A stretch of DNA of 64,000 nucleotides, taken from Branchiostoma floridae. Lineage: Eukaryota > Chordata > Leptocardii > Amphioxiformes > Branchiostomatidae. This document shows, piece after piece, positions 4,630 through 44,900 of this stretch. The notes under the pieces are model-generated. The model was not told where the DNA came from and made no database searches. It was given only the letters and a program-made list of their open reading frames with translations. The translations under genes and the position numbers were made by a program. Position 1 is the stretch's first letter. The number at the start of each line of letters is the position of its first letter. The stretch spans positions 4,365,298 to 4,429,297 of the forward strand of contig NC_049991.1 of assembly GCF_000003815.2 (NCBI RefSeq), read 5' to 3'.

Positions 4630-5077
4630 GTATGTTTCTGAAGACCCAAGCATCAATAACAAATTATTCTCTACAAATCACCCTGACTCCAGGAAGAATA
4701 GTGACATATCAGTCACTTATGAAGATCTGTATCACACTAACCAAACAAACCAAATCAAACCAATAACCACTTCTAAAACGTTCTGAAATAAAATGATTAA
4801 CATTGCTAAGTCCTTCACACTCACGGGGATACCCTAACATCGGCTCCCGGTCCATCCGCCTTGCCGTAGTGTGAGAGCCCGAATGTACCAATCTCCTAGT
4901 CCTGGGGTAGATGTCACATTACTGGGGTAGGTGTCCACACTCTGTAACCTCGAATGCGGGGTGGAGTTTGGGTAGTCGCTAAATGATGGACCTTGCCCCT
5001 CACCCAAGAGGTTAAAAAGGGTTGGAGTAGGGTCAACTACCCTACTTGTAAAAGAGCAACCAGTTACAGAAGCACCG

Positions 5078-6890: not shown

Positions 6891-6945
6891 AAACTTGTTC
6901 TGAGCACAAAGACTATTATGATTATTATTTTCTGTAATGGTTTTC

Positions 6946-11828: not shown

Positions 11829-11906
11829 ATGGCGTCCACGAGCGCCACCATGCGGAGGATGTTTGTCCTGCTGCTCCTGATCTATATTGTAGATTTTCGG
11901 GCTGAG
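11829..11906 (+). CDS. Exon 1: start codon and signal peptide
   Basis: Residues 1-26, [16 protein letters not shown]-type: a short polar N-region, a hydrophobic core ([10 protein letters not shown]), then FRAE. The ATG at 11829 has A at -3 and G at +4. A second in-frame ATG at 11850 (residue 8) sits in GCCACCATG and would also keep the whole signal peptide. The donor is GAG/GTAAGG, phase 0. Confidence 0.75.
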
Positions 11907-17900: not shown

Positions 17901-20900
17901 ATAACTTCAAACTTCACCATTTTTCACTTAAAAAAAGTAGTCAGTCTTACATTACCATTTATAAGTAAGGCAAAATAATGACAATTTCTAAGATATGCAC
18001 GAATGAACTATATTGCTAAACAGGTACGAGGTACAAGGCAACCAATGACATCTACTAGTTATATAGACAATAGCACTACGAGGCTTCATACAGAATATCT
18101 ATAACAACACAGTCATGTATATGATGAAACATAATTTCTGTTCTTATACAGCATGAGGGTGACTGGCGCTGGTCTGACGGTGTATCACTGAGCAGTTGTA
18201 GCTACCAGAACTGGTACCCTGGGGAACCCAACAACAGTGGTAATAACGAAGACTGTGTCCACCTGTTGGCCAACGAAGGTATGAGGTGGAACGATAACAG
18301 CTGCAATGCGAGGAACTACTTCATCTGTGAAACAGGCAAGTCCTTTCACAACTATGGTGAGAAGACCAAGACCTTAAACTGCAGCTGTTGTTAAGTGTAA
18401 TAAGTTATTAAACTGACTTGAGCGTCCACTAGAAATTTCTGTAAAGTAGAATATGTTTTTTTATACATTGCAACCTGGACCTTGCCGTCCTTTTGATAGA
18501 ATCCGGCGTCAATTTGTTACCGGGTCCCGGAATGATTTTAAGTCCGACTTAAATGAGCCCGGGCCCGGCCGTTCTCGAATGTGTCCCGGGAGCCACGGGT
18601 ATCCCATGAGGTCACATTGGCTACCCTTTTCCAATTCTAGTCGAATCCTGGCGAAATGAAACTTTACGAGCTTAGATTCGTCATAATTTGTAATCTGCTG
18701 GCTCAGATTTTTATGGACTAGAAGACAAGTCAGGCAACTGTCAACCACAGGACTTGAACTGTTCACGGCTAATTAACGGCCATGATAGGGAGACCAGGGT
18801 CAGTTGTATGTCTGTCAAGGGCTTCAGGGCCAGGCTAGTGTTATAGCAGCGATATGGTCCCACACGTGACCTAGTCTGTATCCCCCCCGTCCCATTTCAT
18901 GACTGGAGTACATTCCTTAGTGAGTAAAACGGCGTATTATGCTGAAGCAACGAAGTTATTTCTTTTACAAACTACGTCCTCATATGTATTTCTAATTCTA
19001 ATTTTATGTGATTTTCAGGAGGCGGACAAGTACAGTGCAACGGAATCCCTCCGGGTAGGCTAATCACCGTTCACCGTTCATGAAATAAAGAATTTCTGAA
19101 TGAGACTTGGAAATTTGTCTGAATTTCATTAAACTAATCCAAACATTATCCTTTAATCATAACTAGAGTAATACGACTCCATACCTTTGCCAAATAGTTT
19201 TATGGTACTGCAGTTTTCTGTTTATGTATATGTTTTGTCTGTTGTCAATATAACTCAAGAAGCTGTGAATGAATACTCCTTATTTTTAGTAGAGGGCGGA
19301 AAAAGGAAGGCCAAGTTCCATTATGGGCCTTCTATTGACTAATGTTACTGTGGCGGAGCTTCAAAATTACAAGTTTGAGGTTAAATGTTCTAAAAATGTC
19401 AGGTACATGGTTTTTAATTGGTAGATACTAGTAGCTCTCTGGACAAGGAGTAAGTGTTGTATGTCTGAGCCCCAAGCAGCTTTTTTTTTAAAGTGTAGTG
19501 GGTCTTTTTGTTACTTTTGAGGAGACTAACTCAAGTCATAATCGACGAATATTTATAGCTTTTGGTAGATAGGTACCTTAGACGATGATAAACATAACTA
19601 GAAAGGCCGGCATTTGCTTAAGTGTAAATACAGCATATTTCAGCCATCTCTCTCCCATGCAACGATAGACTGTTCCAAAATCACCCACGTGCGAAAACGG
19701 AACACCTCCACCAAAAATGAACAAAATAGACTCCTCCAGTGTACCCCATGTAAAAATCTTAAAATAGAACAGTCCAAAACACTTCCGCTAGAAATTAAAT
19801 TTCAAATCATTGCCGTCCAAAACTGCATCTAAAAAATTCCCCTCTGTGCAAAATGGACTCTTCCTGTGAAAACTCTATGTTAAGTGGAGCAGTACAAAAA
19901 TACTTCTATTGAAATAGGGCATTGAAATAATCACCAAAGTCCAAAAATGAATTTTGAATAAATGCCCCATGGCCACTTCAAGCAATAATTGACTCTTCTT
20001 GCTAACCCCATGAAAATTGGAAAATAAACCAGACTGAAAACATGGCATTTTGCATAACCAGCCCAGATTCCCCTTTGTAAAAAGTTAAACTTTCCTTTCT
20101 ATATCTTTCAGGCTTCTTCTGTTCCTGCTTTTGACAAAATAACATTTTGGTCTGACTTGCATACTTATATAGTTATGGGCATTCGTACAGAAAGCCATCT
20201 TATGATTATTTATCTTTCACAGAACCTATCAACCACGTATGCCTGGGTCAGCTGTCGTGTCAGACACCATCACGTATGATATTTCTCTTTTTTTTCCTTT
20301 GCATCTATTTCGTGTCTTCATCGATCTGAATGATCCCGATATTGTTGTTTAGTCAAGCTTCGAATTGTAAGTCAATAGATAATAATAGATGGTACTTAGT
20401 GTACATTGATCTATCTCTCACTCACTCTCTTTATCTCTCGCTTAGTGTCATAACTGTGAATCTCTGATATTATCCTCCAATCTTTTCATCAACCTACCCC
20501 ATTTCTTATGGATGATTTTCTGCAATATAGTTTTCGCTAAACCCAATGACAATAACACGTGATAGTCCAGCTTCAGTTTTCTTTTTCCTTTATTTTAGTT
20601 TGGGTAGGATGTCTTTGTAAGGACCGACATTTTCTTATTCCTATGTGCAACATGTGAGATGCTCCCTTGAATCTTCCTGAAGCAGCATTGTATCTCTGTA
20701 TTCTTTTCCCAATTTTGCTGTCCAGAACTCGCAGCCATACAAGAATCCTAAGGTGACCGGAAGGAAACATGGTTTTGAAGTTGAAATCTTGGAGTACATG
20801 TAGTCCAATGTCATAATCATCAACTTATAACAACTCTTTCCTCTTTATAAAATATTATCCTTGTTACTTGTAGCGGGTACGTGCGTGGCATGGGGTGATC

Positions 20901-23900
20901 CTCACTACATCACGTTCGACAACCGCCGTCACGACTTCCAAGGAACGTGCAAATACGTCCTGGTGCGTCACGCCGACTTCACGGTGGCAGTCCGTAACGT
21001 CCACCGTCCCGGTCATAGCCAGCAAGTAGCCTTCTGCGACCGTGTGGAGGTGACAGTGTACGGGTACAAAATCCAGATTCGCAGCGGGAGCGGGAGAGAC
21101 GTCCTGGTAAGTTCAAGGTACCGTTTAGTACCCCCAAAAAGGCCACGTGGCGTAACGGCAACGTGATTGGTCCAGAACCATAGATGTCTAGGGTTCGAAT
21201 TCGGATCCTGATATGTCAACGATCTAGTGTCCTATGTAAAGGGACTTAACACGACTTCCCTCACTTCACGTACACAGTAGGTACCTTAACAGAGGGTCTT
21301 AACTATGTAAAAATGGACGGGACTTTCCTTGTTTGGTGGATTGCTGCGGGTGCTTACCTGTACTAGTTGTCTTCGCCAGGTGGTTGCTTGCGCCAGGTGG
21401 TTCTCTGTGCCAGGTAAAAATCTTAAAATGGAACAGTCCAAAACACTTCCGCTAGAAATTAAATTTCAAATCATTGCCGTCCAAAACTGCATCTAAAAAT
21501 TTTGCCTGTGCCAGGTGTTTGCCTGCGTCAGGTGGTTGCCTTCGTCAGGTGGTTGCCTTCACCAAGCACTAGTTGCCTGTTTCATGTGTTGGCCTGTCGC
21601 AGGTGGTTGCCCGTACTTAGTCTGCACCTAGTCTAGTCAAGTGTCTTACTGAATTTCTCCATACCTTTCCCTAGGTGAATGGATACCGCCGAAGCCTTCC
21701 TGTCTGCTTGAACCGCAAGGTCTACATCTCCATCAGCGGTTTGAATGTGCTGATCGAGACTGACCACTGCTTCTCACTCATGTATGACGGGAATCACCGT
21801 GTGGAGATCAAAGTTCCCGCCTCCTACAAAGGAAAGGTAGGTTACAGGCAGTAGTTGGGACTACATGTAGCTCCTACTACAAAATCATCCCTTGACTAGC
21901 CTCCACCAGGCCTTCCTAGTTACTCGGGTACGGGAATCGTAGAATTCGGACAAAAAACTGGATAGGGAAATTGGATAGGGAAGCCAAGCTTATGTTCATG
22001 TTCGCCTCCGGGCGGCCAACCAACACCTCTTGTAGCAATACTAGTACTCCTTGCAAATTATTCTCTCTATAACAGCAAGTGTAGTCACTTGTGTAGTGTA
22101 GTCTAAAAGAGACTTGATCGTCGTTATGAAAGTAATTACATTCTCAGACTCGGTACCAATCAAATGCAAGAATTCCAGATAAATTACTCAATTGTAAATC
22201 GCAATGTTGTCAATAAAATTGCGACCTGTATAATCATTAGATTCATCAGGTAAAAAAAGATTTGCAGCAATTGCGGCGTTTTGTACCTTTTTGTAATTTT
22301 TTTCGAACGTTTGGGCTGGCACTTTCAATTGCGAATGCCTGGCAAAATTTCGCTTTATAGGTTGGTTACGAGGAAAAGATTGTTTTGTCTTCCACAGATT
22401 TTGTACGTTGTACGGAATCAGATTGCTAGGGCCTGTTTCCAGCTAAATGCCATCTACTATACTACTATGGTTTTACGTTTCAGCTTAGCGGAATGTGCGG
22501 AAACTACAACGGCCAGCCGAATGACGACAACCTGATGCCGGGAGGACAGGTCGCCTCCACCTCCCTTCTGTACGGCAACAGTTGGATCGCTCTTGATGAC
22601 AACACGTATGACTCAAATTTATCTTGTTTTTTTTTAGATGGTATCAAGCAGTATTTAGATCAAAATTAAGCTAAAGGAATCTGCAAGTTTCCAAACATTT
22701 GCCCGACCGAAGTGCTCGTTAAGGATTGATGAGGCAGCGATCGCATATCACGTGATTAGAGTTACATCATGTTCATGGAAGCCTATTGCGGCCCCCGTCT
22801 AAATGATGGCGTCCAACACACACAACTACAGTATCATTGTTCCTACATTGAGAAACGTTGCAATGATGAAACATAGGTATCCTAGCGACATCGAAACGGA
22901 AGCAAAGTAATTATTAGTACACAGAGGTGTTATAGAATAATTCTCTTTTGTCCTATGAAATTCAGTAATTCCTGCTGGACTTTTAAAAGGGTTTCAGATG
23001 TAAGAACACAACCTTTTGTGTGCAATCTTTCTATTCCAGCTGCCCGGACACAAGACCGCAGGACAATTTTGACTCCAACGATATCAGCCCGAGTGATTGG
23101 CAGTGGTACTCGCATCCGAGCAAGTGTGGACTCCTCAGAGCTACAAACGGACCGTTTCGCGTATGTTAACTGCTAAAAGAATGTACTTCTATTCAATCCT
23201 ACATTCCATGTATACCAGCTCCTTATGTAGAGGTGCACTATTGGTGGATGGCATTCACACCAGGAAAGCATGTCTAAAAGTATGTATGACTATGACTGCA
23301 TGTATGTGTTGTTTTTTTACTTAATTGACTGGCTATGTATGTATTTGCGTCTCCATTTGTGTCTCCATTCTGTAACATGTAGGAGATCTTTTCAAACGTA
23401 AACAGGTATAGTGCCTTCCATAGTTTTCTGCTTTCGTAATTTTCTTGTCTTAACAACGGTTTCACAACCCTTGTTTTGGTGACCGTCTGTCAACTCCGAC
23501 TGGTTCATATTGTACTGCAGTTATAGGTATCGCTGCTTACAGATGCGGACCCCAAACGTAGGTAAAGTACATTTTACATAGTATACATAGTAAAGTGATT
23601 ATATGCGATGTCCTCCCAGATAGGACAGCATCTATAAGCAGGGACACCTATAGTTGCATTGAGATGTGAACCAGTTAGACTTGCCCTGAGGAAAGTGACA
23701 GACGGTCATCGAAACATTGAAGCAGATACAAAATGGTTGTGAAAAATGTCCTTGTTCTTCGATTTCTTGTCCGACAGACTTGTCACTCCATTGTGAATCC
23801 ATCGGAGTTCGTGAAGACGTGCGTGTTCGACATGGCGGCGTACCGGGGCGACCAGCTGGTGCTGTGTCAGAACTTACAGGCGTACGCTGACGCATGCGTG

Positions 23901-26900
23901 TCAGCGGGAGGGAAACCACAGCAGTGGAGGAGAAGGGGATTCTGTGGTACGTACCCTAGTAGTGACTAGCCTATAGAAAATAAATTGGATACATAGATGG
24001 CTATTGCATATTTTATGTCTATATCTTTTTACTTGGGTCTATTTTGTTTTAACATAATATAGTACTACTACACTCAGGCTGCTTGATATTTTACTCTTTG
24101 ATACGTTGAAACTAAATGGATATCATGTGACAAGTAAAGATGCTTCACCTTCACGCTCACAGGTTTGTCCCGCCGAAATCACGGAACTTCACGCCTGAAT
24201 GTTCTCTCGCGAGAGCAGATTCAAAATGGCCGCGGAGCTTTGAAAATGGTCTATTAACCCATTCCCCTTTTTTCCACAGAGGTGCCGTGTCCACCTCACA
24301 GCCACTACTCCCAGTGTGCCACTCCCTGCCCCCGAACATGCGCAGACTCCGGCCCGAGGCCCTGTACGAGAAACTGCGTGGAGTCGTGTGTCTGTGATAA
24401 CGGTTATGTGCTCAGTGGTGCCCACTGCGTGCCTTTAAGCAGCTGTGGGTGCTCTAAGGACGGGAGCCTTTATGAGGTTTGTCAAATTTTAGATACTATA
24501 GATGATTGCAAATATCAAGCAACTGTCTTACTCCTATACTTTTATCATTACTATGCTTTATAGGCAGTTGCTGGGTATCTTTTGGTAAACTAATATTGGT
24601 TCACGTTATCATACTATAGTTAAAGGTCAATGACCTAGCCGACATGTTAACGATGACGTAAAACTAGGCCTTTAATCTATAACCACTGAATAAAGCACCG
24701 AGTGAGCGAGGCTGAAGCTTTCATAAATGTAGACAAAATGTTATGTTAAGAAATCTAATTAACCACATGATTACTGATATGTTAACCTAACCTAGCAACG
24801 TCTACTGACTGATGATGACAGTTATTTTGAACAAAACAAAGGATGGTGTTTTCGTTTTCGTCTATTTTCATACCAGAAAAACGAAGTCTGGATATCAGGA
24901 AACGAGATATGTACATGTCTGCCAACCAGACGTATACAATGTGAACCTCAAACTGGTACGTTTATCATTCGAACATATTTTACAAATATTCAAACATCGC
25001 CATATTCCAAACCAGGGCCCGGTCGGACTGTTGGTGGAAACATGAAATAGAAATGTCTAAGTGAAAATTAAAAAAAAAACACAAATAATGCCTGACCACG
25101 ACACTAAACGTCATCTTTTAATGTCTTTTATATCCTACATTTCGTTCCCTAATGCTACCCGGCCAGGCCCCGCTTTGGAAATTGACATAGTTCTTACCAG
25201 TATGATAAAACATATGTTATTAACTGATTTGTGCTGATTCCAACGGTATTTATATTTCGGCTATTAGCATGTTAAGTAACGACAGTAACGATCAGATGGA
25301 TATCTATTTTTGTAATTTCCTATTTCTGTTCTAATATAATTAGGTGGTGAAGTCCCGGTGGAAATCTGTGGTGAGTACAGAATCGCAATATCTTGATATA
25401 GTAACTCGACTATACGCTCAATATACTGCATACATAGACTTACTCTAACTGACGCTTTCTATCGATCTCTGTGTTGGTCTGTGTAATCAACGCCTTGATG
25501 AATAACGTGTTACTAGTATGGCAATGTTGTTTCCAACATATGGATGACTTCGGCACGTGCATCAATATTTGTCATTTTCTTTCTCTAAAAAGTTTTCGGC
25601 CATACTGTTTATACAAACCAGCTGCGAAATGAGCGAATGTATGTCGTGATTATGAATCGGAAATGAATAGTAATTTTGTAGAATGCCAAAGTCAAGGAAG
25701 ATGTGAAAGTACGAATATGAAGACTCTGTTGTTCGGTACCCTCTGCGTTTTATTTTGATCAGTCATTTGTTGGACTTACCTGACTACTTAAGCTAAGGGC
25801 ACAACCCGACGTGCAATTTGTCCGTACGTTTTTAGGAGGCCACGTCAGCCCCGTATTTCTGAAAACGTTCAGGCTGTACAGGGCAGGCAGGTCGCCCGTA
25901 CTGGCACGTAGGGGGGGGGGGGGGGGAGCGAATCTGTAGTCCGATGGCACACAAAGTTTTGCCTGCACGTGCACTGCGTGTCTGCGTGCTCCAAAATTTG
26001 TCTGATTCCCTACGACTTTGCACGGAGGCGGTACTTACCACTTACGGATCCCCAAGATTGCCCACGTTTTGGCACGTACTCGTAGACAGCACGTACGGCG
26101 AGTTGTGCCCTTAGCTTAAGCCTAATCATGTAGGTAGCTTTTTTTTCAAATTGTTGTTGTCGCACTTCTTACCACAGGAACGGGCTGGAACACGGTAGTA
26201 GGGTCTTTGTCGTTCGTGTCCATCGGATTCTGCGGCGTTTGGGGCGTGGACTCCGCCGGAGTGGTCTACTACCGAGTGGGCACGTACGGTAACGAGGGAG
26301 CTGCAGGGACGGGGTGGCTGACAGTAACCGGTGTCAGGCTTGTACAGATCAGTTCCGGCCAGGGCATCGTGTGGGGAGTCACAGCAAGATACAGGGTCTA
26401 TGTGCGAATCGGTACGTACTACGTACAATTGTTCACGTTACTTGATATGCTACGGTTACAATTGAGACGGTGCCCGTCGGGGTAGTAGCCCCGGCCCGGC
26501 TCTAAAGCAGGCGGTCTGTCGGATACAGCAGGGGTCCGTATGCACGATTAGGTCACACCATCTATTTGATGCTGGGCTGAGTTTAATTGCAAGTTAATAA
26601 ATGTGGGATCCGACCATGGCATAATATAATCTGGCATCCAAAGGGTGTTCCACGTCCACGCGGCCACGTAGGGTTCACGCCCGAAAGAGCAACAAAAAAG
26701 CACGTTAGGTACCCGGTAAGGACCTTTTTCAGTCGTGACCGCAGAATGTCACTTGACTGACAAATTGCACAAGCTTCATGAATTTGTGACAATTTTCCCT
26801 TGCGTCAAGTACGGCACAGAGGCCTCGCAGAGGCGGCATCAGCAAACTTCTTCGTGGGGGTAGAGGAACTATTGATCCTCTGAAGCATCATTTCCTGCAT

Positions 26901-29900
26901 TTAAGAGGCACATTATGCTTGTTAACTAAGCGCAGTTTGACATTTCAGAAATTGTTATGAGTGAAAAACCGAAAGCGCGAACCACCGCAAGGAATTTCCG
27001 GAGAAATGTTAAAACTGGACCCTCTGAAACTCCATTTACTGTACTTTCATGCACACATTTTGCCGGTAGACTTGCTCGATTTAATAGAATCTCCATCAGT
27101 AAAAAAATACACATGGATTTCAGTTTGATGATGAAGTCGCTAAAATGTTATAAACATTGTTGATACCAGGCATCACGGCCCAGCGTCCACAGGGCACGGG
27201 TTGGACACAGATCGGCGGAGGTCTGATGTCAATCTGCGTGTCAGGATACTACGTCTGGGGAGCTACAACCACCGGTACAGTCTACTATAGGACTGGGGTA
27301 ACTGCAGCAAGGCAATCGGGTGCGTATGTTATAACTTTTGATATTACATAGAACATCTGAACACCTTACCTTAACACCTAAGGTCATCCCGTGCTTAAGG
27401 CACGTCGGATCGTGCTTTGCATCTATGTCAATGGTGGACCTCCCTCTTTTCTCTGTGTCATCCGCTTTAAAGTCTCTCTCTTACAATTGATTTCCATGTC
27501 AATCTTGGCCTTCCTTGCCTCTTCTCCTTACACCAAGTGGCTTCCTGTCAAGAGTCTTCTCCACCGTTTTCTTCTCTCCCATTCTCAAAGGGCACGTCTT
27601 AGCCATCTTAGCCCCCTCGCTGTTACTTTTCTGTGAATTGGTCTACTGTGAAATCTTTTCTTTTCGGCGAACCTCATATGCATGAACAGATTATTGTCGG
27701 AACAAGGGGTTGGTCATGAATTATTAGACTTTATCGCCGTAGCTTGCACGGGTTCTTTTGTGTATGAATCTGTATGCGTAGATTTTCATTAACTTGATTG
27801 TCACAAATGGTCTGAATGCTTCAATAAGAGTTTGTTTGGTTACGCTGGTCTTTCCCTTGAAGGACCCTTTATTACTAATGCAGTGTGTAACAGTAACGTT
27901 TTGATCACGTTATACCGTTTATCATTGTACATTTAGGTACGGGGTGGGCGCTGGTGAGAGGACCGCCTATACGTGGTCTATCGTACGTATCAATCGGACA
28001 CTGCGGCGTGTGGGCAGTGACCACTACCGGTGCGATCTGGTACCGCATCGGCACGTACGGAGGCACAGGTTCGGTTGGAACACAGTGGGTCCAAGTCACG
28101 GGCTGCTCCCTGGTCAGCATCAGCGTGGGGTACAACGTGGTGTGGGGAGTTAGCGCCATCGGACAAGTCTTCATCAGAATCGGTAAGAAACAAGACCAAA
28201 TTAACACTCTCATACCATTTCGCGTCAAAACCACCATCCCACCACAAAACAAATTAATCAATAGTCGCCGTTGCTGTCGTTCCTTTACATCCGACAAGAC
28301 TGCAGCAGCACGCTCATAACAATTAACGTCAAAAATACAGGTTTTGCTATCGCAAACCTGTAGCTATCGAAAACCTGTAAAATGGCTACACTCTTTCTCA
28401 TCATACACAACTCCTTTGGGAGACAAAATCTCAGTGTCCAAGGCCTGGAAGTAATCCAATACCGGCTTTGCAATCATCATAAACCTGTAAATATTGATCT
28501 TTCTGAACAAGTGCGATTGATACATAGCTTTTTGATGTTATGATGTCAGCCATCTTGGATTCCATACACATCGAAAGAATCTGCGCTAAGCATCATGGGA
28601 TTGCTGCGCATTCTCCTCTATTTCGCCCATGTTGGAAATCTAAAACGTTTTTGCAGGAATAACGGCCCAAAGGCCCCAGGGGACAGCCTGGAGACTGGTT
28701 GGTGGAAGCCTGGCTCAAATCTACGTGAGCGCGACTTCTAACCGCGTGTGGGGCTGCGATGGGGGCCACCACATCTACATCCGCGTGGGTATCACGGGAG
28801 GACAAAGTATGTTGATCCTTTTAGCAACACATCTTTGAAACTTCGTGAACAGATGCATGAAATAGTTTCGGTGCATGTACCCCAGGTGTACAACAAAAAT
28901 GGTATATCTTATCATTAATTATGTTGGGATGTTATGTTTTGCAGCAACGGGACCACCTGTGAACCCGCTGTGTCTGGGTAACCTGAAATGTCCAAGCAGA
29001 CGTAAGTTTCTTTCATTTGAATCTATCATTTCTTACTATGTATACACGTTTTTTTTAATGGATGTACTGTTTTCAACGGTAACTTAGAAAGAAAAGGCGG
29101 CAGGTTTGTATTTCGTNNNNNNNNNNNNNNNNNNNNNNNNNNNNNNNNNNNNNNNNNNNNNNNNNNNNNNNNNNNNNNNNNNNNNNNNNNNNNNNNNNNN
29201 NNNNNNNNNNNNNNNNAGAACCACCGAGTCAGCTAAGCGTAGTAATAAGGACACGGAAACTGCATAACGGACCGTTTGTTAATGTTCGTTGTCTTGTATT
29301 TTCATTTTATTGATTAACTAACAGCGGGTCGGTGCAAGGCATGTGGCGATATTCACTACATCAACTGAATAACATATCAAGGAAGGTATAAACTACCGCA
29401 TGAGCTAAGCGTATTTGTAGGTCACTGACAATGCATTATGTCACAATATTTTATATTCAGTGCATTATCCTTTCGTCGGTTTTGAAACAGCGGGTCAGTG
29501 CAAGGATAGGGCAATCCCACTACAATTTGGCTTAATAATATCAAGGAAGGAATAAATCGCCGAGTGAGTGAAGCGTAGTCATAGGTCACTGAACGTTCTT
29601 ATATCCCTTCTTTTGCATTGCCCTTTTGTTGATTTGAAATAGGGGCATGGGGCAATTCTCAACACATTGACTGAATAACATATCAAGGAAGGAATAAATC
29701 ACCGAGTGAGCGAGGTGTGACTGTTTTTGGCTGAACGTTAGCGTTCGTTAAATCATCATTTTCAATTGTCCTTTCATGGCTTGCAAACAGCGGGTCAGTG
29801 CAAGGCGTATGGTGATCCTCACTACATCACCTTCGACAACCGTCGTCACGACTTCCAAGGAACGTGCAAGTACGTCCTGGTGCGTCACGCCGACTTCACG

Positions 29901-32900: not shown

Positions 32901-35900
32901 TCTTTAAACAGAATCTTTTATGCTCAATCGGCAATACTATTTTGGTGGCTTCGCCCAGAGGGGACCTTCATTTAACGTCCTATCTTAGGGACGACGCTGA
33001 GGTGTCACCAAAAATGTCTTTAATTTTTTTTTCAAATCTAAGATGCCTAAAGGCTGTTTTCAAGCCCACAGCTCAGTACCCCAGCCGTTGAAGAGGACAT
33101 TACAAAATATTTGAAGCTCAATCGTAATGCCATCTCTTTTGTCACCAAATGTATTTAGGGAATGTTTTTAAAATCTAAGATGCTGTTTTCAGGCTTGCAA
33201 CTCCGTGCTTAACCCAGCCGTGTAAGAGGGCATTCATAGAATATTTGAAGCTCAATCGTAATACTATCTCAGTGGCTTCGCCTCCGAGGTGTCACCAAAA
33301 ACGTATGTGGGGATATGTTTCTAAATTTAGATTTTTTTTCAGACCTGCATCTCAGTGCTTAACCCAGCGACGTATTTTGAGTCGTGTGTGTTCGACATGG
33401 CGGCTTACAGAGGAGACGAGGACATGTTGTGTGAGAATCTGGAGGCCTACAGCGACGACTGTCGGGCAGCGGGAGGAAACCCGGGAGGGTGGAGGACCGC
33501 AAACCGGTGTCGTAAGTACTTCCGAAAGTAATTTCAGGTTGGTAGAACGCAGGATACTGGGCTTTTCTTTTACACAAACATAACCAGTACTTTGTCTTAC
33601 CTGCTTACGTGTAGACTGTAGATGACTATCAGACATTTTCCCCATAGCTTTCTGACTGGAGTGCTGCTTCTAAACGCTATGTAGTCGATTTTGCGGCTTT
33701 TGCGGCAAGGACACAATACCAAACGTGGCTAAGGACGAAAAAAACAGAACGAGGGGATAAAAATTAGCCACGTTTGGGTTCGTGTTTCGCAACAAAAGTA
33801 CCACCTACACCGGCTACATATATATAGCGGTGAGAAGAAGCATCCCAGTCAAAAGCTCATAGAAACAGCTCTAGAGACATCAAAACGTAATCAGGTGAGA
33901 AACATTGTTATATAAAAGAAATATCCAACATCTGGTGTTGTTGATCTTTTTATTTTTTTTAAATTGCTCTTGAGATAGGATGAAGGACTGTAGTGGAAAA
34001 GTGGAAAACCACCCGGCCGCTGTGCGATAAATGTGGATGGATCTTCTTTACTCTTCTTTCTCAACACAGCAGATCTGATAGCTTTTTCCATGCTCGTCGG
34101 TTTTCTCTTCTCTCGACGTTTAAGTTTGCTTCATACCTGTCCATTCGCTCATCATTCCATCAAGTTCATTGCCTACCGGTATTTCTTCTCCACAGAGGTA
34201 TAAGTCATGTGCCAAAAGCATCTGAAACGTTTTTTTAGTAGTAGTCCACTGTATCCTGCTGCTGCAGTGGTCTGGACACCCTGCAGCTGCATTCAGTCTT
34301 TCTTCAACTCTTTCCACTTCGTCCTGTTGAAACGTTACAAGATCATAAAAACAGAAAGATGTCACAGACACAAGAACTACAAACTGAAATCTAATTTGCC
34401 TGTACAAATTGTCTTCGTCGTTAAACTGCTCAGCATGATATTTTTCCTTTGTTCTACAGCATTGCCGTGCCCTCCCCACAGTCAGTACAACTTTTGTGGC
34501 TCTGCCTGTCCGTTGACGTGTGCTGAGCCCAACCCGAGACCCTGTAACAGGATGTGCGTGGAGTCGTGTGTGTGTGACCAGGGGTACGTCCTCAGTGGTT
34601 CCACCTGCATCCCGCGAAGCAGTTGTGGATGCTCTAGCAATGGAAACTATTACCAGGTATGATATGACCAAAGTAACGCTAGTTCACCTACATCCGTTGA
34701 TTTAGAAACATGGTATTCAAATTGACNNNNNNNNNNNNNNNNNNNNNNNNNNNNNNNNNNNNNNNNNNNNNNNNNNNNNNNNNNNNNNNNNNNNNNNNNN
34801 NNNNNNNNNNNNNNNNNNNNNNNNNNAACTAGAATGGCCGACATTTGCTTGAGCGCAAATACAGCATATTTCAGCCATCTCTCTCCCCTTGCAACAATAG
34901 ACAATTCCAAAGTCACCCATGTACAAAAAATGGAACACTTTTGTTTAAAATTCACTTCTATTAATGACAATTTAGCCCAAAAATGAATCTTACAAAATTC
35001 CAAGTGCAATAATGTACTCTTCCAGTGCACCCCATGTGAATTCATACAATAGACCGGTCCAGAAATTCTCCCACTGAAAACATGGCCTTTTGATTAAGCA
35101 TTCCAGTCCAAAGTTGAACTAAGCAAAAAAGGCATTTAAAGGTAAAATAGACCAGTCCAACAACACATCCACTAAAATTGGACTTAGACGTAATCACCAA
35201 AGTCCCAAAAATGGATATAACCCCCCCCTCCATGTAAGAAAGGACTCTTCCAGCACACCCTATGTAAAATTGCAAAATAGACCAGTCAAAAAAAAAATAA
35301 CCACAATGAAACACTTTGACATAATCACCAAAGTCCAAAAACGATTTTTTAAATGCCCCCCTCCATGCAAGAATGGACTCTTCCAGTACACCCCATGTAA
35401 AATTGCAAAATAGTCCAGTTCAAAAATACTCCCACTGAGAGACATTATATAATCGTCAGTCCAAAGATAAATTTTTAAAAAATGTACCCCCTCCGTGCCA
35501 GAATGGACTCATCCAGATAACACCAGGCTCATTCATTGGCTGCCAATCCCCATCGGGATGTTGACTCAGGCTACGTGATTGGTTGCCTCTTTAATCAAGT
35601 TAGTAGTATATATAGACATGTGCACATACTGTCTTCAAGTGGGAGAGGTCAACGACCTTGAGGTCCTTTGGCCAGTGGAAAATTACCAAAAAGTCCCCAA
35701 ATATATCATTTTGAAGTGGTTTATGCCAGAAATTATACATGGGTCATTTGAATGAATATTTCACCTATTTACCAAAATGTAGGTCATTTGGTTATAAGAC
35801 CAGGGAATAGGGGCCAAAAGCGTACGCTTTTGGTCAAACAATGGCCAAAAAATTCCAAAATTAAGCATTTTGTTGTACCGTATGCTAAAAGTGTTATTGA

Positions 35901-38900
35901 ATCCATGTGCGCATATGTAGACGGCACTCCCATACCAAATTTCAGGTCATTTGGTTGAAAAATTGGGGTATAGGAGCCAAAAATGTCATTTCTGGGGCAA
36001 AAAATGGCAAAAATGTCAAAATTAAGCATTTCGCTGTACCGTATGCCAAAACTGTTATTGAATTTTTGTGGGCATATGATCAAGGTACCTCTGTACCAAA
36101 TTTCAGGTCATTCGGCTGTAATACCAGGGTACAGGGGGGCAAAATGTACATAAAAATTGTACAAAAAACATGAATAAAATCATTTTAAAGGTAGATATGA
36201 AAAAAGATGAAATCAAAAAACCTAAGGGTATTGGTCCACTCAACCCTTGTGTCAAATTTCAAGTAATTCGGTACAGGAACGACGGAGTTGATTCGATAGA
36301 ATGATAGATAGACTGAATGACTGACACTCTAGAAAGGCCGACTTTTGCTTGGGAGCAAATACAGCATATTGCAATCCATCTTCATACCTTTGACCCCTTA
36401 CTACCATGGACTCTTCCGCAACACCCCTATCTATGCAAAATGGACTGGTCTATGTGGACCATTTTCCATTTATAGTAGCTAACGCTACCCCGATACCCAA
36501 TTCCAGATCAGTTGGCTTTTTCATGACACAGGAAGCCAAAATATTCATTTTTGTTAAAAAAAGGAAAAAAATCCCAAATTCAACAATTTTTAATTGATGT
36601 ACACCATAGGTGTGAATAGAGCCCTGTGACCACATACTGTACGCACCTTCATACCAAATTTCAGACCATTTGGCTTTCATACATAGGCACAGCAGCCAAA
36701 ACTTAACATTTTTAGTCTAAAAATGGCAAAAAATCCCCAAAATCAACAACTTAAAGTGATGTATACCCAAAGTGAAAATGAAATACTGTGGGTACTTGCC
36801 AGACACACCTTCATGCCGAATTTCAGGTCATTAGGTTTCCATGTAAGGGCTAAGGAGCCAAAAATATACATTTTTAGTCAAAAATGACCGAAAACCCTAA
36901 AATAACTAATTTTTCAAATGATCTCTGAAGAAAGCGTTGACGGGGCTCTGTGCTCATATGTCCAATGCACCTATGTACCAATAACCTGTTGCATAGACAA
37001 GCATCATCCGAGGACGAAACGTCCATGCCGAGGACGGGGACGAATGGTCTAGGGGACGAAAAGACTAGTAACCCCAAATTTCAGGTCATTTGGTTTCCAT
37101 GCAAGGGCATACGAACCAAAAATGTACATTTTTAGTCAAAAATGGCCGAAAACCCCAAAATAACTAATTTTCTAAGCAATCTCGAGCTCAGTCCTGCGCA
37201 ACGCGATCTCACATACAAAGAAGTACATACAGAGAGAGGGTGGGGGGGATTAGAATACCTTTGTTTTCACGGAGGTAAAATGTCAAGTGGATTATGTTTT
37301 GACTATTTTTACTGTGTATTTGCTTACAGAAAAATGAAATGTGGAGGTCCGGAAACCAAATCTGTACATGTACCAACAGGATCGTCTGTGAAGATGAGCC
37401 AAGTGAGTTATTCCCTTGTCAAACTTCAAACAACATTTTGACTGTATTGATAGTTACAGTAAGGTGCTAATTCTAAGTCAAGAACATTACGCCTTTTGCA
37501 ACTGTTGCTGTTTGTCACAAAACTTTGGAATGCATCGCCTTTTCAGCAGTTTCCACAGTTTTAGCGTTATGATTTCTGACATTTTCTTTCTTCTATAGCC
37601 GGAGCAATACCTACTGCAATAACAGGTAAGTCATGTTTTGAATATTCTTACAGTAGAAAGAGCTGTGAATTCAATTACGTTTCGTGAAGTTTAAATGTAG
37701 AACATTGTGTGCATGTCTTTATGAATGCTATTTTTCAGCCATACTGCTCATTTTCCTCGTGAAGCTGTTATATTTGCAGGTGCCATAATACAGCTTATGG
37801 CTTTTGTATCAATGTTGCTTCATGTGTTTTTTCAGTCTTCGTCTTCTGCTTTTCCCTGTGTAATTTCAGTAAATATTGTTATTATCATAAAGAGGTCTCA
37901 GTTAAAAATAGACTTGTCTAGTTATAAAGTTTAATTGAATTTGTTCAAACTTGAAGGAAAGACAAGAAGGTTTTAAAATAGGAACCTCTAAGAGCCGGCA
38001 ACAGCCACGCTTATTCTGCAGTATCTGTACTGATGCTATTGCTCTTGAGGGCACATATTCAGGGGTGCCTAAGCATTTGCACGAACCCTATGAGTTTTGT
38101 ACGAATATTATGTGATACGCACGAATCACAATGTGAAAACGCACGAACCTTATGAAAATCACATGAATCACTATGCGAGGACGTGCGAACCTTATGCGAT
38201 TCACACGAATCACTATGTGACGCACACGAACCTTATGCAATTTGCACGAACCTATGCAAAACTGGGTCACGCGACATTACGCATAAGGTTCATGAAAATC
38301 GCATGCGGTTCGTGTGTGTCACATAGTGATTCGTGCGAATCGCATAAGGTTCGTGTGTTTTCTCATAGTGATTCGTGTATATCACATAATGTTCGTAAGG
38401 ATCTCACAGGGTTCGTGCAAATGCTTTGGCACCCCTAATATTGATCTGTAAACCTCTGATGACCTATCAATATATACCAACTAGCCTATACAAACCGTCC
38501 TTCCGTACGACAAAACAATGATACAGTCCTAAGTATTTGATATACTGCTTTTGTGGGTTTTCCTTTTGCTGTCCATTTTAGGTTCGGGATGGGACACTTG
38601 TCCGGGGTCCCTTTCCTTTGTGACCATCGGCTTGAGCGGAGTATGGGGCGTGAACTCCAGAGGCGTCGTCTTCTACCGAGTCGGAACGTACGGGAAGGAA
38701 GGCCACTTCGGAACGGAGTGGAAGCAGGTAGACGGAAACCTTGTGCAGATCAGTTCCGGCAATGGCATTGTGTGGGGAGTTGACAGACGAAACCAGGTCT
38801 ACGTGCGAACCGGTACGTGATATGCTGTCACTACTGTTCTACACGCCGGCTTACGTGGTTTAGACTGCGTATACGACGTGTGATGTACTGTGGGTATCAT

Positions 38901-41900
38901 AGTTGAAAGCCCTTGGCCTGACAAATTAACAAAACATGTCTGGACAATGCATTTAGCATGGTCTTGACTAGAATTGTTTACAAATATTGGCTTTCACTTT
39001 TGGCCTCTGACTCATTCGCAATTGAAACTTTGAACTGCCTTATTTGACCTAACAGTTGATTATAAGTGTCTTGAACTTTGTGAGTTAAGCGTAAAACATG
39101 GTCTCGTTCTTAATTTTTCCCCATCTCACCGCACAGAACTGTACAGTCACCGTTACTGTTACGGTAATGCATCTGGATATTAGTATATGCCCAGTGTTTC
39201 ACAGTGTTAACTAAGTACATATAGCTAAATCTCATTGAGTTCCTCTGTCAAATGTTTGTGCAAACGAAAAAACCGTTTTTAATTTTTCTTCAGGTATGAC
39301 AGTGATGATAGCGTATCGCACAACTTGGAATATGGTCTCGGGACGGCCTCTGAAGTCAGTGTGCGTCAGTTCCTCAAGCAACTTTGTCTGGGGCGTCTGC
39401 CCTTGTGGTACCATCTGGAGACGGACAGGGATAACCGCCAGAAACCCCATTGGTAGGACAACTAGACTTAATTGGGTGTCACGTGATTATGACGCCATGT
39501 AGCGTCCGCCATGTTGGTGGGTTAGTGACGAACGCCTTTAAAAGAAATGCTATACATCTGGCCTGGAGAGCACAGAAATATGGAATTTTGTAATAATTCT
39601 CATTTATCCGCCCCACCAATGTGGCGGCCAAAAGTGCCGATAAATTGAAGTTGCTGATCCTATATCAACGGCGATAGTGTCGTAGAATAAAGAATTGATG
39701 ACCCGCTCTAGGGGTATACGTTGCACTACTTAATATCCGATTTCTATATAACCACCGAATAAACTACCGAGCGAAGTGAGGCGGGCACATATGGGATATT
39801 AATGACCTTTGTTATGGAAAAAAATGAAGCCTTCTGATTATGATAATGTAGTCTAATGCAGTGCCGTTTTCAGTAAGAAGCTGGCAACTGATACCTGGTA
39901 TGATTAATCATACGAGGCGACCTATCGTACGAGGCAGCCTATCGTATGTGTCATTTGGTTACGCTGGTTTCTGCCTTTAGTTCTAATCTCCAAGCAGATC
40001 TTGAGGTAGTTTAAGACAATAACATAAGCTGGGGAAGGAGTTTAGCCGGCAAAGGAGTTTTATTCTACCGCGATTACTTTAGTACATTTCGTAACAGTAA
40101 CGTTTTGATCATGTTTTACCGTTTATGATTGTACATGTAGGTACGGGGTGGGCGCAGGTGAGCGGACCGGTCATACGTGGTCTATCGTACGTATCAATCG
40201 GACACTGCGGCGCGTGGGCAGTGACATCTACCGGTGCGATCTGGTACCGCATCGGCACGTACGGAGGCACAGATTCGGCTGGAACACGCTGGGTCCAAGT
40301 CACGGGCTCCTTGGTCAGCATCAGCGTGGGGTACAACGTGGTGTGGGGAGTGAGCGCCATTGGACAAGTCTTCATCAGAATCGGTAAGAAAATGTTATAC
40401 ATGGCTTTCTGTTGCACATCATTCTGTGTTTGGCTCATCTTGTAATGCTTTCAATGGTATATATGCGGTTTGTGGTAAACACGATCCAAATCTAAAGGGG
40501 AAAATCCAATTTATTCCCCTTTTTCGTACCTTGACTCTGGTATATGATCGGTATTGCTCTGATGATCTCACACTACTTGTTTCTCTATGGAGAACCTTTG
40601 AGTGTCACAATTAGGTTTTCATTTATTCTACATCGTTTATACTGTTAAATTTAAAGTTTCAAAGTCTTTCTAAAGCAACAGCTTGCCTTGTATTATAAAA
40701 TCGTGGACCTTTCTCGATAACAACTGTTTCACTCCTGTATATACAATCTGCAAGCCATTAAAACCAGTATACGTCGATGTAGGTTAGACATCCAGGTAAT
40801 AAGATACGCCAAAAATAGTTACTCAAGCAACTGGATATGGTTTTGAAACGGTCAGACGTTTCGGAAAGAATCCACTTTCCTTCGTCAGTGACACTGAAGC
40901 GATCTGCAAGAAACAGGTCTTTTTAAACTTTTAGCTCCTGTAACTAAAACAACAGGAGCTAATTGACTCATTTGCATTAACTGTGTCTTAGCCTTGATAT
41001 CCTTTGAAATTCAAATTTTCTTCAGCTTGACTTTGGCTTAGCTTTGTTTTCTTTGGAATCCAAATTGTCTTCAGTCTGAATTGTCTTGCAACCTTTCCTA
41101 TTGGACATCTGAAATTGTCTTCAGGGGGCACACACCAGTTTATTTGGGGGTTCAAATGGAGGCGGCACACCCTCAAGTCTAGTGACCATCTCTTCCAGGG
41201 AATTATCCTGAAGGAAAATAACTGTATATGGGGTGAGAGGATATACCTTCAGCTACAAGACCAACTGAGTTTCGATCCTTCAACTTCTCTAATTTTGAAA
41301 AATTATAGGGAAAAAACATTATTTTCATGTCAAAATTGATGCACAAAATCGGGCATTTTCGCATTGGATAAAACAGATGAAGAAGATTTTTCCGGCAAGC
41401 ACGACTGATACTGCCAGAAAGAGGAAAATCTAAAGACTAATCCAGCCAATTATAAAGAAAATTCTAGTACTACAGTTTTTTTAATCATCCACGGCGCGCG
41501 GCATTGCAACTTTGCTTGACACAGCGCTTCAGAGGTAAATCTAGGTCACGGGCCTCTTTACATTCAGGCATAGGGATATCGCGGAAGCAACGCGCGGACC
41601 AAAACACAATTTGCACCAAAAACACACCATTTCATACGCTTTTCAGCCATGTAACCGTTTAATGTCATTTCGCAGGAAATAATGAGAAATGTCAACTCAA
41701 ACTTGGGCCCTCGGAAGCCTTTCGTCACTTTTTGGTCGCGGACTACCACGGACCCCGGTCGCGGAAGAACTGGGGTGTGCACCGTTAATATATGCAAATT
41801 ATGATTAATATTGTCCATGACTTTAAAAAGTTATACTCTATAATCATGCCAAGTTTGACTTGTCTGCGACTTTTCTTTCTCGAGTAACAGGTGGTTGAAA

Positions 41901-44900
41901 GTTGCGGGGTCGGAAGGCTGATTTTGCGCCTCCAGGATGGTATACCATTCAATGCGCATAATAGCAATTACGTCACAATGAGCTTGTCCTATGGAAGAGG
42001 TTTTAGGCTATCAATACGTGCTAAATAAAGAGTTATGGCCATGAAAAGGAATGACAGAGGGGTGCTCTTGTGATGGAGCACACTTTCCTCCTATTTCTGA
42101 CTGGAACAAACGGTGTAAACCTCTTAGAACATATTTGAGTTCGTGACGTCACAATGCCTGCCGCTGGCCTATGTTCTGAAGTGACAACGATGCAGTTTTA
42201 AGTTCCGCGCTTTAACGGAAAGCACTTGAAATATTAATTTTTGGTCATATCGGGTAGAGAATAGACCTAGCTTTTCCGTCCAAGCGTTTCCGTTGGCAAG
42301 ACTCCTTTTATTTCGTAGAAAAATGAAGTTAAATGTTGTACCTTTGGTAAAGATGGAGGTCTGTGCTGCACTTCTTGCGGCTATGAAGGTATAAACGGGC
42401 ATCTGCTAAGATAAGGCTGTACAGTTTGGTGTCGGTCTCGGTGAGATAAAGAAGCCTTGGGATGTGTCTTCGGATTAGTGCAACTTATTTGTGTTAAGGC
42501 CGAGAACTAGCGCCACACCGAACTTGACACTTGATTCGGAAGGAAAGTGCGAAAGTGACGTCATCGGGGCCTTTTTTCATTGGAAAATGCCTGCTTCTCA
42601 ATGTAGGAGCAATTGTGAAACGTTCAAATGCGATTTCAAAGTGCCCAAGAGGTACTGTAGTTTAAACAACAATGTTTCGGTAGGTTTTATGCAATCTATG
42701 CTTAGCACACACACTTCGAAGGCTATGCGACCGTGTTTGAGGGGGGGGGGGGCGTGGGAGGGGGGCAAATCCACCCATTATATGACAGTGTAGAATCATA
42801 TCAAAACCTGCGAAATCCGGCTTTTTTTCAGTCAGATACGATCGTGGCTATACAATTTCATGGGGAAAATGCAATTTGTTGGCTATTATCACTAATACTT
42901 TTTTCAGGATGGGTGCTTTTAAGGGGGCACACACCAGTTTATTTGGGGGTTCAAATGGAGGCGGCACACCCTCTAGTCTAGCGACCACCTCTTCCAGGGA
43001 ATTATCCTGAAGGAAAATAACTGTATATGGGGTGAGAGGATATACCTTCAGCTACAAGACCAACTGAGTTTCGATCCTTCAACTTCTCTAATTTTGAAAA
43101 ATTATAGGGAAAAAACATTATTTTCATGTCAAAATTGATGCACAAAATCGGGCATTTTCGCATTGGATAAAACAGATGAAGAAGATTTTTCCGGCAAGCA
43201 CGACTGATACTGCCAGAAAGAGGAAAATCTAAAGACTAATCCAGCCAATTATAAAGAAAATTCTAGTACTACAGTTTTTTTAATCATCCACGGCGCGCGG
43301 CATTGCAACTTTGCTTGACACAGCGCTTCAGAGGTAAATCTAGGTCACGGGCCTCTTTACATTCAGGCATAGGGATATCGCGGAAGCAACGCGCGGACCA
43401 AAACACAATTTGCACCAAAAACACACCATTTCCTACGCTTTTCAGCCATGTAACCGTTTAATGTCATTTCGCAGGAACTAATGAGAAATGTCAACTCAAA
43501 CTTGGGCCCTCGGAAGCCTTTCGTCACTTTTTGGTCGCGGACTACCACGGACCCCGGTCGCGGAAGAACTGGGGTGTGCACCGTTAATTCATAGTTAGAG
43601 TTAAAAGACCTGTTTCTTGCAGATCACTTCAGTGTCACTGACGAAGGAAAGTGGATTCTTTCCGAAACGTCTGACCGTTTCAAAACCATATCCAGTTGCT
43701 TGAGTAACTATTTTTGGCCATTAAAACCAGTGTTCACCGCCAAATCTGCTTGCTTTTTTACCATTAAGACATTTGAAACACTATATACTAGGGGTGGGTA
43801 CCGGTAAAAAAAACGTTTTTCTTATCGGACCGGTCCAGAAAAACCGGACCTGAAAAAAATCGGTAGACCAAATGTTGGACCTATTGGAAAATGAGCAGAT
43901 TATATGTTCAGGCATTCACACGTTTTGGGGCTTATCGGTCGAGGAAAACAACAAGAGCAAAGTAGAGTAGAGTCTATAGTCATTCCTATATACAAAGTTT
44001 AACAGTCAATAATACAGAGGCAGTTAGCCATGTAGGATTTTAAAACACGAATGGGAGTCGAATACTCCACAAAACAGTCTTCATTGTAGCGAAATGGACT
44101 ATTGTTTTGAGTATCGTCCATTCACAAATTTTCACATACAGAATCAGGTTCTCTGGACCTGAACCGGATCTGGACCTGAATTTTCTGTACCGGTACCTAC
44201 CCCTACTATATACACATACTCGTACACGTAGAAAGAAATACCCGACAACGTTTCTGGAGAAAAAAGGGCAGTTAAGAGAATGCATCATTCATGGTTTCGT
44301 GCAACACAGTTGCAACATCTGATAGATACACAGAACAAAATGTGTCACTTTTTTTTCTCACTCAGGAATAACGGCCCAAACACCACAGGGAACCGCCTGG
44401 CGATTGGTCGGGGGAAGCCTCACTCAGATCTACGTTAGTTCCTCGTCCAATCGCGTGTGGGGATGTGGTCTGAGTCATCACATCTATCTCCGTGTAGGAA
44501 TTACATGGAGCAAAGAACCTGTGGATATTCCCCGTAAGAATCGGCTATATCATTTTTATTGTATGTAATCTGTTATCTGAAACGTATGCCTCATGGCCTA
44601 ATGCTTCTGTTTGCTCGTTCAGTCCTTGGGTAGTTGTGGTGTGAAGTGGCACAGAAAGTAGGGGAGCAAAATCACTGAAACTTAGAAGGCCTGGATTGAT
44701 TGTAATGATACGAGTATTTAGTATGTGAGTAGGATTCGATGCTAACTTGTACCCCCTATCGGCTTGTTACGGTGCTGCAGCGTAACCTCTGTATTTAATA
44801 TCTTGGTTCCTGGACATGCCACAGTCGTGATTTTGTAGTAGATAGCTCTTATAACTGGGGCAGAGAAAATTGCTTCTTTGGAACTGCAGTATTCGGTTTA

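Follow-up and report, generated by a model that had tools for sequence, protein, structure and literature searches.

The 64,000-nucleotide (nt) stretch of the Branchiostoma floridae genome analysed here (NC_049991.1, positions 4,365,298-4,429,297 of the forward strand, also written C13:4365298-4429297), hereafter the window, contains a gene in which a complete 13-exon cassette occurs twice in tandem. The predicted product of this gene is a secreted mosaic protein of ~2,040 residues with a signal peptide, a WSC domain, a C-type lectin domain, two VWD-C8-TIL-E assemblies (D assemblies) each followed by a six-bladed tectonin propeller, a VWA domain and an acidic tail. Our preferred reading, to which we give a probability of about 0.6, is that this protein would be a self-cleaved, disulphide-held, multivalent lectin scaffold of mucus or of a sticky secretion, and that it arose through cassette duplication and gene conversion.

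Tandem cassettes in the window gene and its paralogues

An earlier examination of the letters alone (the sequence-only reading) had described two 13-exon cassettes matching one to one in length, order and phase. Cassette exons were located by the lengths given there together with AG...GT borders and an open frame, and all 13 pairs were found between such borders with exactly those lengths, the length modulo 3 being equal in 13/13 pairs. Cassette A spans positions 20223-28806 and cassette B positions 28945-44533 of the window, with GT donors in all 26 exons, and the summed exon lengths (1941 nt in A and 1962 nt in B) are both divisible by 3. When joined, the 26 exons yield 1300 codons without a stop, and the other two frames contain 46 and 44 stops. 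The two cassettes are 0.696 identical in protein sequence over 641 aligned codons (~70%). As calculated from the exon lengths, introns are in phase 1 at both ends of the cassette and likewise around the WSC, C-type lectin and VWA modules. Phase 1 module borders are the usual sign of exon shuffling, and the cassette with its 1-1 borders was probably duplicated by unequal crossing-over.

A DNA search of the animal's own genome (513,431,437 bases in 431 contigs) identified three paralogues on the same contig as the window gene, here named G1, G2 and G4 and placed in C13 contig coordinates; positions in the window gene are window coordinates. G2 lies on the plus strand, from its WSC exon at 3828716 to its last exon at 3869863 with the signal-peptide start at 3826232, and has both cassettes (34 of 36 modelled exons plus both micro-exons, no stops) in sequence that is free of unspecified bases (N) from 3821447 to 3890999. 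G4 (4655971-4698502, minus strand) also has two cassettes, with 32/32 exons from cassette A exon 1 on and a single 100-N gap; none of its four WSC and lectin exons could be located, with Ns lying upstream, and a lectin match at 4715116 was dropped for invalid borders. G1 (3701753-3723569, minus strand, signal-peptide start at 3726863) has a single cassette and 21 of 36 exons, namely lectin a and b, A1-A12, B13, the four VWA exons and the two C-terminal exons, the last of these to the end of the match only; a WSC match was discarded because it contains stops. The 27-nt micro-exon pair of the window gene is weakly alike by itself (44% nucleotide identity), and micro-exon counterparts with AG/GT borders are present in cassette A of G1 and in both cassettes of G2 and G4. 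A fifth locus, C13:4826056-4830745, has VWA and C-terminal exon 1, with no VWD, C8 or tectonin among the matches listed.

In order to date the doubling, synonymous (dS) and non-synonymous (dN) divergence was calculated by the Nei-Gojobori method with Jukes-Cantor correction, under which several single exons are saturated; pooled values exclude the acidic last exon. Within genes, A and B differ by a pooled dS of 0.94-1.00 and dN of 0.23, rising to a dS of 1.47 in the window gene when exons 4 and 12 are left out. Between genes, A-A and B-B comparisons give a pooled dS of 0.11-0.26 and dN of 0.01-0.05, and the flanking exons, again without the last, a dS of 0.20-0.27 and dN of 0.03-0.07. As A and B are further apart within a gene than the same cassette is between genes, the cassette doubling (dS about 1-1.5) is, by this measure, older than the gene duplications (dS about 0.1-0.3): the cassette doubled first and the genes later. 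By their pooled dN/dS of 0.08-0.27, the copies as wholes are under purifying selection.

The window has a 100-N assembly gap (29117-29216) between cassette B exons 1 and 2, and it could be supposed that cassette B belongs to another gene or haplotype that was joined on there, or that two adjacent genes have been read as one. This is very improbable. Cassette B exon 1 precedes the gap and is in phase, the intron between A13 and B1 is short (138 bp in the window gene, 446 bp in G2), and an A-B dS of about 1 is far above allelic difference; as G2 carries both cassettes without a gap, the objection from the Ns falls away. The 138-bp intron contains no AATAAA or ATTAAA and the following intron contains two, which is weak evidence against a transcript end between the cassettes. 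That a whole cassette was duplicated within one gene, as the sequence-only reading had proposed, is borne out by the window exons together with two two-cassette paralogues, one of them gap-free.

Genome searches were also made with VWD, C8 and tectonin, for which 150 of 307, 180 and 164 candidates were scored and the lists compared by eye. The three lists coincide at the C13 loci and nowhere else among the matches listed. The nearest other case is on C3, where a VWD-C8-TIL match with an intact CGLCG (C3:4662073-4664588) lies 32 kb from a tectonin match (4696475-4698668), and nothing was found joining them; in this locus (4662073-4699169) the tectonin propeller is followed by an acidic tail that is 29% like that of the window gene. 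At C13:13908127-13938718, tectonin matches (13908127-13916885) precede VWA matches at 13920196 and 13938509, which share 66% and 61% identity with the window VWA, with no VWD or C8 among the matches listed; this is perhaps a relative that has no D assembly. In addition, C6:15469232-15505656 has at least 18 C8 matches beside VWD matches, mostly 1.94 kb apart and with equal scores, as in a large FCGBP-like array or an assembly repeat, and long arrays of VWA matches 26-42% identical to the window VWA occur at C2:13018455-13086986 and C12:14821743-14905772, which we would guess to be collagen VI- or matrilin-like.

Probable exchange between cassettes A and B

The high A-B likeness of two exon pairs, exon 4 (11/24 in the sequence-only numbering) and exon 12 (19/32), indicates gene conversion, through which the cassettes would have been homogenised at these exons. 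For exon 4, the A-B dS is 0.17 in the window gene (0.21 in a second estimate), 0.08 in G2 and 0.12 in G4; for exon 12, the corresponding values are 0.09, 0.33 and 0.45. Among codons of the window gene that encode the same residue in A and B, silent differences are found at 4/34 in exon 4, 4/68 in exon 12 and 160/325 in the other exons (168/427 overall). Runs free of silent differences as long as the longest one observed arose in 23 (window gene), 8 (G2) and 34 (G4) of 10,000 shuffles; the observed run sits in exon 12 in the first two genes and in exon 2 in G4. The fewest differences per 30 same-residue codons were reached in 5, 6 and 246 of 10,000 shuffles, in segments lying in exon 12 of the window gene, exon 2 of G2 and exons 3-4 of G4; gene conversion may have affected part of exon 2 as well. 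The A-B match of exon 12 in the window gene runs on for 50 bp into the upstream intron. Furthermore, at the 31 sites that separate A-type from B-type in G2 and G4, exon 12 of cassette B in the window gene is A-type at 23/26 up to position 85 and B-type at 5/5 from position 104.

Selection on silent sites or a recent partial duplication could also have left these exons alike, and a conversion event is not itself demonstrable from sequence; in G4, the exon 12 signal is weak (19/66 silent differences) and the longest silent run falls elsewhere. We nevertheless regard this explanation as unlikely, as it fits poorly with the gap between the silent differences in exons 4 and 12 and those in the remaining exons, with a tract that takes in intron sequence, and with a cassette B exon 12 that is mostly A-type at its 5' end and B-type at its 3' end.

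Exon 12 is also where the single cassette of G1 changes type. Exons 1-3, 5-8, 10 and 11 of G1 are closer to A, exon 4 is a tie, exon 12 is mixed and exon 13 is closer to B. Within exon 12, the 12 sites as far as position 24 are A-type in G1, those from 26 to 69 are a mixture, and 6/6 from position 85 are B-type, a state that continues into the next intron from its first base. This intron is interrupted further on by a 1205-N gap (3710579-3711783); the 156 bp between exon 12 and the gap match the B-type intron of G4 at 85% and that of G2 at 89% over 74 bp, with weaker matches of 71-74% to the A12-A13 introns and no match to the window gene's own B-type intron. The single cassette cannot be a product of the gap, given the B-type intron before it and the switch from A to B within exon 12, which point to an exchange rather than the gap as what removed the rest of G1. 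Nor is G1 the ancestral one-cassette state, as most of its exons are A-like, exon 13 is B-like and exon 12 is mixed. G1 has the appearance of an A/B recombinant whose breakpoint falls in exon 12, and unequal recombination between the A and B copies of that exon is the simplest account; the missing part was presumably once present in the lineage of G1, which would have lost its remaining exons in this way.

The predicted product and its proposed role

Pfam was searched with the assembled 2013 residues, which leave out the signal-peptide exon, at E up to 0.001. The nine families listed cover WSC (residues 4-85), Lectin_C (114-222), two VWD, two C8, two TIL, Tectonin and Hyd_WA stretches, and VWA (1532-1700), and each cassette searched alone gives VWD, C8, TIL, Tectonin and Hyd_WA. 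Tectonin reaches 3e-46 and 3e-51 in the two cassettes; the six repeats of each propeller were counted per exon (2+1+2+1) from the translations, and the propeller fold is a sequence-based assignment. The domains named in the sequence-only reading (VWD, C8, TIL, tectonin, WSC, C-type lectin and VWA) were all recovered, except that its "VWC-like" exon has no Pfam VWC match, aligns at the position of the E module of FCGBP and is better called an E module. Among solved structures, the D assemblies are closest to FCGBP (8rde, 1311 bits over six stretches, best single stretch 232.6 bits), with further matches to VWF, MUC2, MUC5AC and MUC5B. The only two matches of the propeller are fish-egg lectin (4ruq, 9.5e-11) and tectonin 2 (5fsb, 4.9e-10), and the closest to the VWA domain are collagen VI alpha 3, mussel PTMP1 (4cn8, second-best) and integrin alpha 1.

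In an alignment of the window gene, G1, G2 and G4, all seven VWD copies have GDPH, a Cys four residues before the motif and a Gln at Asp+14. In FCGBP, cleavage is stopped or inhibited when the Asp or His is changed and reduced when this Gln is changed, and cysteines are positioned to hold the first strand in all VWD domains (PMC10880436, in excerpt). As the same residues are kept in 7/7 copies here, one cut per cassette is expected. The cassette has 39 cysteine columns, of which 32 are kept in all seven copies; the variable seven are in the propeller (5), the micro-exon (1) and exon 5 (1). The C-type lectin domain has EPN at residue 186 and WND at 207 of the assembled protein, together the signature of mannose-type, Ca2+-dependent C-type lectins, and the VWA domain has DGSKS at 1538 and TDG at 1641, where DxSxS and TDG are metal-ion-dependent adhesion site (MIDAS) motifs of VWA. 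Tectonin lectins of horseshoe crab and carp bind parts of lipopolysaccharide (LPS) or N-acetylglucosamine (PMC3269628, in excerpt), and human hTectonin binds LPS (PMC2707011, in excerpt). Together, the tectonin repeats, the EPN/WND pair and the MIDAS motifs suggest a multivalent glycan-binding scaffold of a secretion.

In the proposed mechanism, each VWD domain would cut itself at GD/PH after secretion, as in FCGBP, and disulphides would hold the pieces together. The D assemblies would then act as arms presenting two glycan-binding propellers beside the Ca2+-type C-type lectin domain, the VWA domain and acidic tail could bind matrix or metal, and the product would hold glycans, particles or microbes in mucus or a sticky secretion.

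Several observations weigh against this reading. The CGLCG motif of VWD is replaced in 7/7 copies, by RGMCG in one and SGMCG in the others, with 0 CGLCG hits in the assembled protein; with this replacement, and with other cysteines occurring besides, the disulphide pattern would differ in detail from that of FCGBP. A single N-glycosylation pattern and no mucin-like region were seen, so the protein is not itself a mucin. The signal-peptide exon ends in phase 0 and the WSC exon requires phase 1, leaving the two unjoined as drawn, and one small exon is therefore probably missing between them in the gene model. No constraint is apparent in cassette B exon 11 between the window gene and G2 or G4 (dN 0.15-0.16, dS 0.07-0.10) in lectin exon b between the window gene and G2 (dN 0.14, dS 0.07) or, at a dN/dS of about 0.4-0.8 between genes, in the acidic last exon. 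Self-cleavage and glycan binding are read from motifs, and the sequence does not separate an immune role from a structural or adhesive one.

Glue is the leading alternative to mucosal defence. On this account, the product would be a cohesive or adhesive protein, a bulk glue of a feeding net, egg coat or attachment, with the lectin parts tying it to glycans of a surface or matrix. VWD, C8, TIL and C-type lectin domains and EGF repeats are often common to the adhesive proteins of aquatic animals, and flatworm Tmed-ap1 has a signal peptide, C-type lectin, EGF, VWD, C8, TIL, VWC and 19 EGF (PMC9229212, in excerpt); a sea-urchin candidate combines SUEL lectin, EGF, VWD, C8 and TIL (PMC10057474, in excerpt). 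The VWA match to PTMP1, a mussel byssal protein, points the same way. However, Pfam shows no EGF repeats in the assembled protein, and proteins of mucus, adhesives and egg coats have overlapping domain sets, to the point that sequence is not decisive. We consider this account doubtful, though it is the best placed of the alternatives.

It is also conceivable that disulphides between D assemblies couple chains head to head into long polymers, giving a gel-forming material like VWF and the mucins. Two VWD-C8-TIL-E assemblies per chain and the structural matches to VWF, MUC2, MUC5AC and MUC5B speak for this, and VWF has a VWA domain too. Gel-forming mucins and VWF carry CGLCG in VWD and a C-terminal cystine knot, whereas the window protein has S/R-GMCG in place of CGLCG in 7/7 copies, no cystine knot among its Pfam families and no mucin region, and its VWA domain is closer to collagen VI alpha 3 and integrin alpha 1 than to VWF. 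Polymerisation of this kind is thus improbable, and the self-cleaved lectin scaffold is retained as the preferred reading.

Gene model, surroundings and relation to described proteins

The exons of the window gene are given below. The numbering of the sequence-only reading required seven exons upstream of the cassettes, of which only five could be supported. The acidic tail of the last exon has no Pfam match.

Exons of the window gene in window coordinates (numbers in brackets are those of the sequence-only reading)
Feature	Position	Strand	Evidence or remark
Signal-peptide exon, 26 residues, donor GAG/GTAAGG	11829..11906	+	Open frame; conserved upstream of G1, G2
WSC exon a	15102..15233	+	Acceptor uncertain (15102 or 15108); Pfam WSC 6e-17 over exons a+b; conserved in G2
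WSC exon b	16527..16682	+	Pfam; counterpart in G2
C-type lectin exon a	17192..17388	+	Pfam Lectin_C 1.2e-24 over exons a+b; conserved in G1, G2
C-type lectin exon b, EPN and WND, GC donor (CAG/GCAAGT)	18152..18335	+	
A exon 1 (8), linker	20223..20273	+	
A exon 2 (9), VWD with GDPH	20874..21106	+	
A exon 3 (10), VWD	21675..21836	+	
A exon 4 (11), VWD end, putatively homogenised with 31424-31545	22484..22605	+	dS 0.21, 0.17 in two estimates
A exon 5 (12), linker to C8	23040..23160	+	
A exon 6 (13), C8	23778..23946	+	
A exon 7 (14), TIL	24280..24476	+	
A exon 8 (15), E-module-like	24877..24955	+	
A exon 9 (16), 27-nt micro-exon	25344..25370	+	Counterparts in G1, G2, G4
A exon 10 (17), tectonin repeats 1-2	26178..26411	+	
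A exon 11 (18), tectonin repeat 3	27170..27319	+	
A exon 12 (19), tectonin repeats 4-5, putatively homogenised with 40141-40383	27937..28182	+	dS 0.09, recombination sites
A exon 13 (20), tectonin repeat 6	28657..28806	+	
B exon 1 (21), linker	28945..29001	+	
B exon 2 (22), VWD with GDPH	29791..30023	+	
B exon 3 (23), VWD	30303..30464	+	
B exon 4 (24), VWD end	31424..31545	+	
B exon 5 (25), linker to C8	32395..32515	+	
B exon 6 (26), C8	33343..33511	+	
B exon 7 (27), TIL	34460..34656	+	
B exon 8 (28), E-module-like	37330..37402	+	
B exon 9 (29), 27-nt micro-exon	37599..37625	+	Counterparts in G2, G4
B exon 10 (30), tectonin repeats 1-2	38582..38812	+	
B exon 11 (31), tectonin repeat 3	39294..39452	+	
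B exon 12 (32), tectonin repeats 4-5, 5' part mostly A-like	40141..40383	+	
B exon 13 (33), tectonin repeat 6	44366..44533	+	
VWA exon 1, MIDAS DGSKS	45250..45458	+	Pfam VWA 7.6e-43 over four exons
VWA exon 2	46866..46991	+	
VWA exon 3, TDG	47266..47391	+	
VWA exon 4	47914..48007	+	
C-terminal exon 1	48502..48665	+	Conserved in G1, G2, G4
Last exon, acidic repeat tail and stop	49321..50073	+	250 aa, 94 D/E, 19 K/R, 0 C

Cassette B exons 12 and 13 are separated by 3,982 bp of intron in the window gene, against 255 bp (G2) and 849 bp (G4), the length in the window gene being partly due to an insert-like element at 40808-43718. This element has 116-bp inverted ends that are 99% identical (40808-40923 and 43603-43718) and contains two 670-bp direct repeats, 99.1% identical (41120-41789 and 42919-43588); pieces resembling its ends also occur in the G1 and G4 regions. 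A TTAGGG-rich array at 17520-17830, with 28 copies in 311 bases, forms an interstitial telomere-like repeat in the intron between the lectin exons, and G1 has a comparable array between its own lectin exons. At 12381-12722, two identical 88-bp stretches flank a 163-N gap and look like an unmerged assembly overlap. Elsewhere in the window, the minus strand has two open frames with F5/8 type C (discoidin-like) domains at 58905-60113, probably a neighbouring lectin-type gene, and a repeat-rich frame without a Pfam match at 61220-61975. Open frames on the plus strand at 4976-6934 are retroelement-like by eye (GTWNVRTM), and the three that were run against Pfam gave no match.

Among known systems, the window protein is most like FCGBP of vertebrate mucus in its tandem VWD-C8-TIL-E assemblies, its GDPH with the preceding Cys and its best match among solved structures. 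FCGBP-type proteins carry an N-terminal IgGFc-binding domain, for which Pfam gave no match here; the N-terminus shows WSC and Lectin_C and is probably short of one small exon. Invertebrate chordates are not known to have IgG. CGLCG, lost in the window protein, is present in the FCGBP chain aligned to it, and in place of the 13 VWD domains of FCGBP, 11 of them with GDPH (PMC10880436), the window protein has two, each followed by a tectonin propeller, in addition to WSC, C-type lectin, VWA and an acidic tail. The likeness to tectonin lectins (fish-egg lectin 4ruq, fungal tectonin 2 5fsb and horseshoe-crab TL-1) consists of Pfam Tectonin matches over the cut-off and six repeats per propeller; TL-1 and carp FEL are plain six-fold propeller or tectonin lectins (PMC3269628), whereas the window gene has two propellers within a mosaic protein. 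Tmed-ap1 shares the signal peptide, the C-type lectin and the VWD-C8-TIL-VWC order but has EGF arrays instead of tectonin propellers and one assembly instead of two, with no WSC or VWA stated in the excerpted text (PMC9229212). Spiggin, the stickleback glue, is likewise secreted and adhesive and comes from a mucin gene that has expanded into a tandem family, but its array is one of whole genes, and the excerpted text states no propeller (PMC4989455).

Among the papers listed by searches of open-licence literature, none showed a protein joining tectonin to VWD-C8-TIL, in agreement with the sequence-only reading, which knew of no described protein with this architecture; in one set of listed papers, PMC3269628 alone has both tectonin and VWD, in separate contexts in its excerpted text. 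A deposited "uncharacterised" protein model of the window gene probably exists. As lancelets are rich in new domain combinations, this one is only moderately surprising, and we describe it as a new mosaic of known domains whose history of duplication, conversion and loss is unusually clear. Tentatively, the genes could belong to a family of self-cleaving lectins that has yet to be described and may be restricted to lancelets, every D assembly being paired with its own six-bladed sugar-binding propeller. The number of arms would then change through recombination within exon 12, which would also keep this exon alike between arms, and lectin valency would be set by copy number, with the other exons diverging.

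The tandem unit described here unites the tectonin lectin propeller with the self-cleaving D assembly known from mucus proteins, both of which have been studied in detail. With four related genes on one contig, a single set of exons records the age of the internal duplication, the later conversion and the recombinational loss. Should the protein occur in mucus, it would illustrate a way in which glycan recognition could be placed directly on a D-assembly scaffold in an invertebrate chordate.

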